From positions 2,785 to 54,560 of the forward strand of contig CACWLH010000032.1 in assembly GCA_902761625.1 (NCBI GenBank): DNA of 51,776 nucleotides, given 5' to 3'. Below, piece after piece: positions 44,549 to 47,509 of the stretch (position 1 is its first letter; the number at the start of each line of letters is the position of its first letter). This DNA is from an uncultured Erysipelotrichaceae bacterium (lineage in GTDB: Bacteria; Bacillota_I; Bacilli_A; Erysipelotrichales; Erysipelotrichaceae). Under the pieces are notes generated by a model. It was not told where the DNA came from. It saw only the letters and a program-made list of their open reading frames with translations, and did no database searches. The position numbers were made by a program, and so were the translations under genes.

Positions 44549-44575
44549 ATCCGGACGATTTGTCCGGATTTTTTT
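44549..44575 (+). terminator. Intrinsic terminator of pepF
   Basis: ATCCGGAC (44549-44556) pairs with GTCCGGAT (44562-44569) around GATTT, followed by TTTTTT. Confidence 0.95.
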
Positions 44576-44588
44576 GTCGCATGTATCC

Positions 44589-44594
44589 TATAAT
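44589..44594 (+). promoter_or_regulatory. -10 box giving a leaderless transcript for the MFS-like gene
   Basis: A perfect TATAAT ends only six bases before ATG 44601, so the usual initiation point seven bases on is the A of the start codon. The -35 region overlaps the pepF terminator and shows no consensus. Confidence 0.65.
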
Positions 44595-44600
44595 GGAAGT

Positions 44601-45638
44601 ATGAAAGCATGCAGAAGCAGCACAAAGATCATTGCAGTACATTCACTCAGCCACATGGCTGTGGATTTCATCTGCATTCTTTCCCTGATGCATTCCTTTG
44701 GCAATGATGCGCAGATGATTGTGCTTTACAATTTCTGCGCATTCGCGCTGCAGCTGCCGATCGGACAGGTTCTCGATCTTCTCGTCAAAGACCGCGATGA
44801 TAAACAGCGGATTCCGCTTTATGCGGCGATTGCCGGCATGATGTTATGTATCATCGGATCATTTATAACACCGCTGATCAGCGGCGTCGGCAACGCATTG
44901 TTTCATACCGGCGCAGGCATGATCTGCATGGAACAGGATGAGGTGAATGAACTTAAAGGCAGGGGACTCGGTGTGTTCGTGGCGCCCGGGGCGCTTGGTG
45001 TGACGGGCGGCATCCTGCTGGCATCCACAAAATGGTTTTCCGTTGTCAGAATTGTATTGTGTGTTGTGATGGCGCTGCTTTGTGTCATTGCGATTTCGAT
45101 ACACAGCCATGAGAAAACGATCATCAGACCGATATCCCGGCCGCTTCATACAGATGATCTGAGAGTTTCACTTCTGTGTCTGTCAGCTGTCATTCTGCGC
45201 TCGCTTGCCGGCACATCGCTGGTATTCTCCTGGCGTATCGGTGTTGTCTATATTGTTCTTTCAACGCTTGCTCTGGCAGCCGGAAAGGCAGCCGGCGGTT
45301 TTCTGAGTGCGAGGCTCAATGTAAAGAATGCTTCCGTCATGTCCCTGCTTCTCGCAGCAGCTTTTTATCTGGTGAGCGATCATCCGTTCTTCGGCCTTTG
45401 CGCATTGTTTTTCTTCAATATGACCATGCCTTTGACACTTTATATTGAGATGAAGAACCGTCCTGATATGCATGGCTTCGCGTTCGGTCTGCTCACATTC
45501 GGATTGTTTATCGGCTGGCTGCCGGCGTTTTATGGGATCTGTGCGAATGTGAATGCCTCAAGGCCGGGAACTCTGATTTCCGCAATCAGTATGATCCTTC
45601 TGGTATATGCGGAAACATTGCGTGAGAGGAACTCATGA
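44601..45638 (+). CDS. MFS-like multi-spanning membrane protein
   Basis: The 345-residue protein is almost wholly hydrophobic with about ten to twelve predicted spans. It resembles shortened major-facilitator-like proteins of gut Bacillota: HSLSHMAVDFICILSLM at the first helix, VLYNFCAFALQLPIGQVLDLL, GNALFHTGAGMICME, GLGVFVAPGALGVTGGILL, and a second half with AAGKAAGGFLSARL. The substrate is unknown. ATG 44601 has no Shine-Dalgarno site; an upstream TTG at 44574 is in the terminator and would place the promoter inside the gene. The next gene overlaps as ATGA, and two secreted mini-proteins follow, so it heads a four-gene cluster. Confidence 0.78.
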   Translation: MKACRSSTKIIAVHSLSHMAVDFICILSLMHSFGNDAQMIVLYNFCAFALQLPIGQVLDLLVKDRDDKQRIPLYAAIAGMMLCIIGSFITPLISGVGNALFHTGAGMICMEQDEVNELKGRGLGVFVAPGALGVTGGILLASTKWFSVVRIVLCVVMALLCVIAISIHSHEKTIIRPISRPLHTDDLRVSLLCLSAVILRSLAGTSLVFSWRIGVVYIVLSTLALAAGKAAGGFLSARLNVKNASVMSLLLAAAFYLVSDHPFFGLCALFFFNMTMPLTLYIEMKNRPDMHGFAFGLLTFGLFIGWLPAFYGICANVNASRPGTLISAISMILLVYAETLRERNS

Positions 45639-45976
45639 TCCGCACATTGTTTGAACCGCTGATATTGACAGTCATCCTGGAGGCGGCAGGGGCTTATATG
45701 ATAGGAATTCATGATCTGAAACGGCAGTATCTGATCCTGCTTGTCAACTGCATCACCAATCCCTTGCTGGTATGCGCATCGCTTCTGGCCATGCATTTCA
45801 TGGGTGTGCAGAGCGGGATGATGATCACATATGTGCTGTTTGAACCGATTGTGGTGATCGCTGAATATCTGATGTATCAGAAGAAAATGGATGCGCCGAT
45901 GCATCCGCTGATCTTCTCGGCTTTGCTGAATATGATTTCCATTTGCGGAGGTGTTTTATGGAGAAGTCTCTTTTAA
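45635..45976 (+). CDS. Small polytopic membrane protein, partner of the MFS-like protein
   Basis: The 113-residue protein has about four membrane helices: FEPLILTVILEAAGAYMIG, YLILLVNCITNPLLVCASLLAM, ITYVLFEPIVVIAEYLM and IFSALLNMISICGGVLW. The N-terminal Glu in VILEA and the NxxTNP pattern are polar residues inside the membrane, reminiscent of transport components. I know of no named family. ATG 45635 overlaps the MFS-like stop by four bases, which means coupled translation, and its last 19 bases overlap the next gene. Tight overlap argues for a joint membrane complex. Confidence 0.75.
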   Translation: MIRTLFEPLILTVILEAAGAYMIGIHDLKRQYLILLVNCITNPLLVCASLLAMHFMGVQSGMMITYVLFEPIVVIAEYLMYQKKMDAPMHPLIFSALLNMISICGGVLWRSLF

Positions 45977-46149
45977 GAAAATCAATCGCAGCCATCTGTT
46001 CCGTATTCTTCTTTGGCATTATGGCAATTCCTGTAAAGGCGGACGCTGCTCCGGTGCCTTTTTATGCTGCCATGACGCTCTGGCCTTTGATACTGGCCGT
46101 GCTTGTTGTGATCATCGCAATCTTTCTGTACAGAAAATTTAAAAAGTGA
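45958..46149 (+). CDS. Secreted single-span mini-protein 1
   Basis: The 63-residue protein begins with a signal peptide (KSIAAICSVFFFGIMAI, cleavage likely in PVKADA) and ends with a membrane helix (LWPLILAVLVVIIAIFLY) and a basic tail RKFKK. The mature outer part is only about ten residues, ADAAPVPFYAAMT, followed by LWP at the membrane edge. The start ATG 45958 follows GGAGGTGTTTT, the best binding site in this cluster. It is similar in layout to the next mini-protein. Function unknown. Confidence 0.75.
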   Translation: MEKSLLRKSIAAICSVFFFGIMAIPVKADAAPVPFYAAMTLWPLILAVLVVIIAIFLYRKFKK

Positions 46150-46192
46150 TTTGATCTGATTGAAATCTACAAATTAATAGCGGAGGTAATTT

Positions 46193-46390
46193 ATGAAAAC
46201 GATGAAAAGAAGAGGATTTGCCGCAGTCCTTTCGGCTGTCATGATCACACTGTTTTCTAAACTCACGGTGTATGCGGATCTGGCCCCGATTCCGCCTGAA
46301 GAGCCGGAGCCTCTACGGATCTGGCCGGCTTTGCTGATTGCGGCTGTGGTGATCATTGCCTTGGTACTGTATTTCAGATACAGAAAATAA
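46193..46390 (+). CDS. Secreted single-span mini-protein 2
   Basis: The 65-residue protein has a signal peptide (GFAAVLSAVMITLFSKL, cleavage likely after VYA), a proline- and glutamate-rich outer segment DLAPIPPEEPEPLRIWP and a membrane helix (ALLIAAVVIIALVLYF) with basic tail RYRK. It shares A-D-x-A-P-[VI]-P and a WP at the membrane border with the preceding mini-protein, so the two are probably paralogues. ATG 46193 follows GCGGAGGTAATTT. It is the last gene before a bidirectional terminator. Confidence 0.72.
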   Translation: MKTMKRRGFAAVLSAVMITLFSKLTVYADLAPIPPEEPEPLRIWPALLIAAVVIIALVLYFRYRK

Positions 46391-46406
46391 TTGTCAGTCA
46401 AATGAA

Positions 46407-46449
46407 AAAGACATCCGTTTCATGTGTATGCATGTGTGCGGATGTCTTT
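46407..46449. terminator. Bidirectional terminator between the membrane cluster and lrgAB
   Basis: AAAGACATCCG (46407-46417) pairs exactly with CGGATGTCTTT (46439-46449) around a 21-base loop. Flanking A and T runs are short but on the right sides. Confidence 0.82.
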
Positions 46450-46454
46450 CGTTA

Positions 46455-47147
46455 TTACAGGAACATTGCCCAGAGATTGGCGCCGATGACGGTGATAATG
46501 CCGGCGGTGACGATGGAAAGGGAACTCATTGCGCCTTCCACTTCACCGATTTCCATGGCTTTGGCGGTTCCGATGGCGTGGGCGCTGGTGCCGATGGCAA
46601 GACCCTTGGCAATCGGATCGGTGATGTTGGCTGCTTTCAGCACGCCTTCCGCGGAGATGTTGCCGAAGATACCGGTGACGATGATGGCAGCGACTGTGAT
46701 CGGAACCACACCGCCAAGCTCTTCGGAAATGCTCATGCCGATCGCGGTTGTGATCGATTTGGGCAGGAATGTGACATACTGCGCATGATCGAAGTGGAAG
46801 ATCAGTGCGAAGATCAGAATGACTGTCATGGAAGTGATCGAACCGACAAAGATGGAGATCAGAATCGCTTTGATATTTTTCTTCATCCTCTCGATTTCCA
46901 TATAAAGCGGAATCGCCAGGGATACGGTGGCAGGTGTGAGCAGATAGCTCAGATACTTTCCGCTGTTGTTGTATGACGCATAATCAATTCTGAACAGAAG
47001 CAGGAAGACCATCGTCAGAGCAATGGATATCAGAAGCGGATTGATCAGACTGCTTTTGAACTTTGCCTTGAGCCACATTCCGAAATAATAGAAGATCAAA
47101 GAGATAACGACGCCGATGGTAGTGCTGGAAGCGAAAAACTCATTCAT
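46455..47147 (-). CDS. lrgB: LrgB-family protein (CidB/LrgB)
   Basis: LrgB is the large membrane partner of LrgA in a holin/antiholin-like or pyruvate-related transport system. The 230-residue protein has many helices and the family segments LLTPATVSLAIPLY, FLPKSITTAIGMSISEELGG, ITDPIAKGLAIGTSAHAIGTAKAMEIGEVEGAMSSL, which are diagnostic. Start ATG 47147 on the minus strand follows AAAGGAGAAAACG; upstream in-frame codons lie inside lrgA. The start overlaps the lrgA stop by four bases (47144-47147), so the two are translationally coupled. Confidence 0.93.
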   Translation of the reverse strand: MNEFFASSTTIGVVISLIFYYFGMWLKAKFKSSLINPLLISIALTMVFLLLFRIDYASYNNSGKYLSYLLTPATVSLAIPLYMEIERMKKNIKAILISIFVGSITSMTVILIFALIFHFDHAQYVTFLPKSITTAIGMSISEELGGVVPITVAAIIVTGIFGNISAEGVLKAANITDPIAKGLAIGTSAHAIGTAKAMEIGEVEGAMSSLSIVTAGIITVIGANLWAMFL

Positions 47148-47509
47148 GCGTTTTCTCCTTTCTTTTTGTCTTTTGAAATAATGAATTCGGCAGTTTTGCC
47201 GGTCACGACCATGACCACAACATTGCAGACGATCACCGTGATCAAAGCGGGAATCAGAATCGGCTGAAGGGCGCTGAAGGAATCCAGAAGACCGACTGCG
47301 GCGGGAATGAACATCACCGGCATGATGGCGATCAGAAACTGGGCGGCTGATTTCACCTGATCCAGTTTGAGAACTCCCGCATAAAGCAGAATGAACATCA
47401 GCACAAGGCCATAGATGGAAGCAGGGATGGGCAAGGGCAGCAGATAGCGGATGATCTCTCCGATGCATGTCACCAGCATGATAATCAGAAATTGCTGAAG
47501 ATACTTCAT
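47144..47509 (-). CDS. lrgA: CidA/LrgA-family protein
   Basis: The 121-residue protein is the small membrane partner of LrgB with four helices. Family landmarks are IIRYLLPLPIPASIYGLVLMFILLY near the N-terminus and PVMFIPAAVGLLDSF. The C-terminal tail KDKKKGENA is basic. Such proteins are associated with murein hydrolase control and, in some species, pyruvate transport; which applies here cannot be told. ATG 47509 on the minus strand follows GACGAGGT. The gene pair is divergent from the glutathione peroxidase gene, with about 128 bases between. Confidence 0.93.
   Translation of the reverse strand: MKYLQQFLIIMLVTCIGEIIRYLLPLPIPASIYGLVLMFILLYAGVLKLDQVKSAAQFLIAIMPVMFIPAAVGLLDSFSALQPILIPALITVIVCNVVVMVVTGKTAEFIISKDKKKGENA

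Follow-up and report, generated by a model that had tools for sequence, protein, structure and literature searches.

A conserved bacterial gene unit combining an MFS-fold protein, a four-helix membrane protein and single-span partners with a D/N-x4-P mature N-terminus

As a rule, each bacterial MFS transporter is regarded as a machine encoded by one gene. Here we ask whether an MFS-fold protein and the small membrane proteins encoded immediately behind it belong together and, if so, what they would form. The locus that raises this question lies in a stretch of 51,776 nucleotides from an uncultured Erysipelotrichaceae bacterium (contig CACWLH010000032.1), which in its full length is referred to below as the window, and its features are as follows.

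44549..44569, + strand: upstream intrinsic terminator, a canonical hairpin with a T-run that ends the preceding oligopeptidase-like gene
44601..45638, + strand: open reading frame of the MFS-fold protein, 345 aa
45635..45976, + strand: open reading frame of 4TM, a four-helix protein of 113 aa
45958..46149, + strand: mini1 gene, 63 aa, with signal peptide (..IPVKA^DAAPVP..), C-terminal span and basic tail
46193..46390, + strand: mini2 gene, 65 aa, a paralogue of mini1 (..TVYA^DLAPIP..), with C-terminal span and basic tail
about 46402..46453, no strand assigned: downstream hairpin between the convergent mini2 and lrgB-like genes, the downstream boundary of the unit

The MFS stop and the 4TM start share four bases (ATGA, 45635-45638), the 4TM gene overlaps the mini1 gene by 19 bases (45958-45976), and Shine-Dalgarno sequences of good quality precede both mini1 (GGAGGTGTTTTATG) and mini2 (GGAGGTAATTTATG). 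The terminator at 44549-44569 forms the upstream boundary of the unit, and the downstream hairpin gave -24.2 kcal/mol with a z of -6.7 in a fold computation.

Several observations concern the surroundings of the unit. TATAAT stands six bases 5' of the MFS start codon (44589-44601), as it does at L017, the locus of the nearest relative, with no clear -35 element; given this placement, the MFS mRNA might be near-leaderless. Positions 45651-46850 are 92-99% identical to L017 over the 4TM gene, the minis and the start of lrgB, and the 43-base gap between mini1 and mini2 is the same in both, whereas the MFS genes are only 75-93% identical; this step in sequence identity suggests that a tract was exchanged by recombination, with its breakpoint close to where the MFS and 4TM genes meet. 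Convergent lrgB/lrgA-like genes follow downstream of the unit at 46455-47509 (Pfam match to LrgA, 1.6e-28), and lrgB also lies 3' of the unit in L017 and apparently in L019, an arrangement not seen in most relatives.

Is the first gene product a transporter? The window's MFS protein, scanned alone, gave no Pfam match at E 1 or better. Its AlphaFold model (pLDDT 95.4) matches VMAT2 in Foldseek (E 1.2e-7) and Spns2 in VIA (Z 31.8, 3.2 A over 323 residues), and 15 of 40 family members match MFS_1 (PF07690, best E 8.8e-12). On the predicted model, the protein has a true MFS fold. A preliminary description of this DNA had read from it four genes in a row with 4-base and 19-base overlaps and a terminator at either end, among them one for an MFS-like protein; the open reading frames and folds agree with that layout, and the model, Foldseek and VIA confirm the fold. 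Nine residues (H18, D22, Y43, D59, N98, H102, R200, W211 and K229) and an FNMTMP block are invariant in the 40-sequence alignment, with H18 and D22 placed in TM1, N98 and H102 in TM4 and R200 in TM7. A GxxxD after TM2 and GVFVAPGA in TM5 presumably correspond to motifs A and C of drug:H+ antiporters, which they resemble, and these motif A-like and motif C-like segments make export the likelier direction, short of proof. Bacterial MFS exporters of the MFS_1 family share the fold and both segments, but the MFS protein of this unit differs from them in being paired with 4TM and a partner. Profile searches of PDB sequences gave no match to the MFS protein or to 4TM.

The second component, 4TM, is modelled as four long helices with a pLDDT of 95. 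T12, E16, N38, N42, E77, N99 and G106 are kept in 36/36 aligned members, and E70 in each of these members having a residue at that site; judged by their spacing, the conserved residues occupy one face per helix and probably form a buried polar cluster. Since loops 1 and 3 are rich in basic residues (mean K+R 2.7 and 3.0, against 0.6 or less in other regions), 4TM is predicted to be N-out/C-out, and this topology of the free protein agrees with the one required by the 4TM fusions described below. The family has no counterpart in Pfam (36 members scanned) or NCBIfam. It is also without a confident structural relative, Foldseek and VIA having given weak matches only, for example to RibU S-components (E 1.7, Z at most 6.2), which are at the noise level of helical bundles. 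EmrE-type SMR proteins (four spans, about 110 aa) are similar in size, span number and the presence of a membrane-embedded Glu, but they show no sequence match and their conserved residues differ: the Pfam scan of the 36 members returned no SMR match, and the Foldseek match to EmrE was weak (E 6.0).

A search for the MFS protein in one genome per species found 43 loci, which belong to Erysipelotrichaceae, Lachnospiraceae, Oscillospiraceae and other groups. An iterated profile located 4TM directly 3' of MFS in 40 of the 43, while two of the remaining three have it elsewhere in the locus and one reaches a contig end. The order MFS-4TM-mini is found at all 13 loci of the window's genus, the mini starting inside the end of 4TM in most. 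When 392 Bacillota genomes were sampled evenly, the MFS protein occurred in 14, that of the window included, and in each of the other 13 the locus also includes a 4TM gene. It likewise occurs in 14 of 200 genomes sampled from one Lachnospiraceae-type family; here 12 have 4TM adjoining or in the same cluster, one locus is cut by a contig end, and one genome of the sample (G504) has a distantly related MFS and, at another place, a fused 4TM. These counts describe a unit that is patchy (14/392, 14/200 and 5/299 genomes) but coherent, and its conservation in other genomes rules out a chance arrangement. No match to the unit was found on plasmids or phages, so that no mobile-element carrier was seen. 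Co-inheritance is common for small overlapping genes, and these might accordingly be independent neighbours joined by operon inheritance alone; we regard this as highly improbable, since the order varies (4TM upstream or downstream; the partner upstream, downstream or on the other strand) yet the association is kept, and since fusions exist.

The remaining two genes encode one kind of protein. Both minis start with a positive n-region and a hydrophobic stretch that lead to an AxA-type cleavage site; a further hydrophobic span and a K/R tail follow. With 36% identity (E 1.4e-5) they are paralogues, and they are the sole such genes found in the window's genome. Minis of the window and its relatives have 44-70 residues; between the window and its nearest relative their dN/dS is 0.11-0.19, a figure behind which stand few changes, and the stronger coding evidence, as judged from sequence comparison, is conservation across families. 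These results bear on several points of the preliminary description. The genes it set out are adjacent in nearly every genome with the MFS protein, and its mini-proteins do have homologues and a conserved coding signature, in the form of a motif that recurs across genera and families. Its four-gene unit is real and conserved, but comprises three components rather than four, since the two minis duplicate one component of varying number.

The minis belong to a partner class that is characterised by [D/N]-x-x-x-x-P at or near the mature N-terminus and a basic-tailed C-terminal span. In many Lachnospiraceae and Oscillospiraceae the partners are longer (245-330 residues) and carry SH3-like segments between motif and span, the full layout being a signal peptide, A^DVIxEPxxxFYxxHxxEC, tandem SH3-like segments, one C-terminal span and a basic tail. 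The label SH3-like was assigned to this DVIxEP type by eye, and it has no Pfam or NCBIfam family match above cut-off; SH3_3 matches occur only in related partners of L047 and L055, and the L055 partner alone passes a curated cut-off (SH3_3, 40.8 bits). Beyond MFS_1 and SH3_3, the Pfam and NCBIfam profiles yielded little for the four proteins of the unit or for the larger partners. Mature position 1 is D, rarely N, across the class, and position 6 is usually P (78% of 73 collected sequences; 88% without the SH3_3-type group, some of whose members lack it), frequencies that are descriptive, since Asp/Asn at +1 was a selection criterion of one collection and P at +6 of the pattern search. The motif is also visible in locus lists that were not selected for it. 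In some minis, which are without a signal peptide, the motif is reached 3-13 residues into the chain, as in MPFLDVIQEP and MIFDVVVEP. A dedicated single-span partner gene thus accompanies the MFS gene, in two or more tandem copies at some loci, and the number per locus ranges from one to several, with up to five D/N-x4-P proteins, e.g. at L028.

How closely the class is tied to the MFS and 4TM genes was gauged in two ways. Across 71 loci, a pattern combining the motif, C-terminal span and basic tail matched 41 times; 37 of these matches lie on the same strand at 1.6 kb or less and four adjoin on the opposite strand (L069, L070), with zero matches away from MFS/4TM genes in about 880 kb of strand sequence; having been written after examples were seen, the pattern is a gauge of specificity rather than discovery. 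In addition, 18 whole genomes were searched with a profile of the SH3-type partner. The profile matched in 14; in 12 of these it found nothing beyond the gene or tandem pair known from the MFS/4TM locus, the exceptions being G434 with two elsewhere and G451 with one weak match; no match was obtained in the other four (three mini-type genomes and G439).

These numbers bear on the possibility that the D/N-x4-P proteins are clients, whose mature N-terminus would be recognised by the MFS protein and 4TM, which would then modify, anchor, cleave or export them as a sorting or maturation machinery dedicated to them. Such a role would suit a motif that stands at the mature N-terminus whatever ectodomain follows, whether in SH3 partners, minis or 4TM fusions, and the presence of up to five such proteins at some loci. 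General sorting systems serve scattered clients, however, whereas only one or two SH3-type partners, at the locus, were found in 12/14 of the searched genomes, a number per genome that fits a subunit better than sorting clients. The 4TM alignment contains no invariant catalytic Cys/His/Ser set, and the minis lacking a signal peptide hold the motif some residues in and not at a processed end; we consider clients an unlikely explanation, though the foremost of the alternatives.

Binding to the cell wall or to peptides is typical of SH3-like ectodomains, and with SH3_3 matches in two partners and a single copy per genome a sensor or signalling unit can also be envisaged, in which the MFS protein would serve as receptor or transceptor, the SH3-like single-span protein would read the cell wall and 4TM would couple. 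This appears distinctly improbable, as the window's minis are without any ectodomain, the transport motifs are kept in the MFS protein, and no kinase, sigma factor or regulator is conserved beside the unit across the inspected loci. Very little weight is given to a bacteriocin-like peptide system, with the minis as secreted membrane-active peptides, the MFS protein as their exporter and 4TM as immunity protein. It would account for minis that are short, hydrophobic and cationic and for the patchiness of the unit, but at the same locus other genomes have homologues of 245-310 aa that are SH3-like and end in a stop-transfer span plus basic tail, proteins of the partner type are joined to 4TM in one chain elsewhere, and no toxin, maturation or ABC export genes are conserved near the unit.

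A filamentous-phage coat protein was also considered as the identity of the minis, an idea that came from their layout of signal peptide, N-terminus, span and basic tail and from a weak match to Phage_coatGP8 (E 0.26); it was rejected, the homologues accompanying MFS/4TM and not phage genes. Variant forms were seen at a number of loci. A composite locus (L048, 3534-8385) has two MFS and two 4TM genes, and both there and at L051 (4763-7074) polytopic proteins start with A^DVANPGG, A^DMGNPAG or A^NPIAPS after the signal peptide. In small-genome relatives (L062, L064, L065 and L066) a 127-147-aa protein with a hydrophobic start of the LDVIMFPFSC type is encoded upstream of MFS and is perhaps another partner form. 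A partner-like protein (L098; profile E 3.6e-32), whose mature start is without the usual D-x4-P, occurs in a genome (G544) with no MFS or 4TM match.

The strongest link among the components comes from fusion proteins. In other Clostridia the 4TM domain makes up the C-terminal part of a 245-330-aa signal-peptide protein with an ectodomain, and this domain is homologous to free 4TM (E 1e-20 to 1e-11). The mature proteins begin with ADTGPKPS, ADVGPKPS, ANSAEPPS or ANAAEPPS, their ectodomain is unlike the SH3 type, and they have no Pfam or NCBIfam family match above cut-off. Among 18 fusions built of signal peptide, [D/N].... start, ectodomain and 4TM, D/N occupies +1 in 18/18 and P occupies +6 in 16/18. 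These ADxGPKPS and ANxAEPPS types therefore share with the unit a homologous 4TM domain and the [D/N]xxxxP mature N-terminus, and differ from it in being one polypeptide with an unrelated ectodomain and in having no adjoining MFS of this subfamily. As sequence evidence, the fusions constitute a Rosetta stone for physical association. Genomes with a fused 4TM are mostly without an MFS of the window's subfamily, and in none does one adjoin the fusion, so an MFS protein is not required for each 4TM protein; from these MFS-less fusions, 4TM and the motif are probably the older core, to which the MFS protein was added later as a partner.

A conserved unit, in conjunction with the fusion of 4TM to a secreted protein elsewhere, suggests that the components probably act as one complex. 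We therefore favor, with a probability of roughly 0.55, the reading that the unit encodes one membrane complex, in which an MFS transporter is joined by 4TM and by a single-span ancillary subunit whose N-terminus faces outward. The core would be a compact MFS protein in which the motif A-like and C-like segments, together with the Asp of TM1, the His of TM4 and the Arg of TM7, mark an active exporter, probably a proton-coupled one, export being the presumed direction, and 4TM would be a dedicated second subunit with an invariant buried Glu/Asn cluster. The minis would be single-span ancillary subunits, with the [D/N]xxxxP end outside, one crossing and the basic tail inside; the same subunit would carry an SH3-like ectodomain in many Lachnospiraceae and Oscillospiraceae and be fused to 4TM in other Clostridia. 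Its DxxxxP end may dock on the outer face of 4TM/MFS, and the subunit may contribute to assembly or activity much as basigin does. The fusions strengthen the idea of a complex, which the preliminary description had raised, while physical assembly of the window's own proteins stays a prediction. A more doubtful proposal is that 4TM is the receptor for a new D/N-x4-P address tag at or near the mature N-terminus, offered in cis by the fusions and in trans by the minis and SH3-like proteins, with the MFS protein using docking to drive or gate a step of transport or assembly.

The nearest working parallels to the favored complex are basigin/embigin with MCT1-4 and GLMP with MFSD1, which we cite as analogies, claiming no sequence relation. 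In the former, a eukaryotic MFS transporter needs a single-span ancillary glycoprotein for plasma-membrane expression (PMC2409183); the likeness lies in an MFS-fold transporter with a dedicated single-span partner bearing an extracellular domain, and the differences are that it is not known to have a 4TM subunit and that the window-type partner has D/N-x4-P at its mature N-terminus. In the latter, lysosomal MFSD1 critically depends on its accessory subunit GLMP (PMC6819133), again an MFS protein with an accessory subunit, the differences being its lysosomal location and that no 4TM component is known for it. Among the open-licence literature, no paper was found that contains DVIWEP or this combination of components. 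Precedents thus exist for the MFS fold and for ancillary subunits in general, whereas, as far as testable, none exists for the 4TM family, the motif or the combination.

Together these results indicate that gut Firmicutes hold membrane-protein families without a Pfam or NCBIfam entry, and that the 44-65-codon genes at these loci are real and merit annotation. If the proposed complex is true, a bacterial MFS unit with 4TM and single-span subunits would parallel basigin-MCT and GLMP-MFSD1, and would make the function of subunits of this kind accessible in a simple genetic system.
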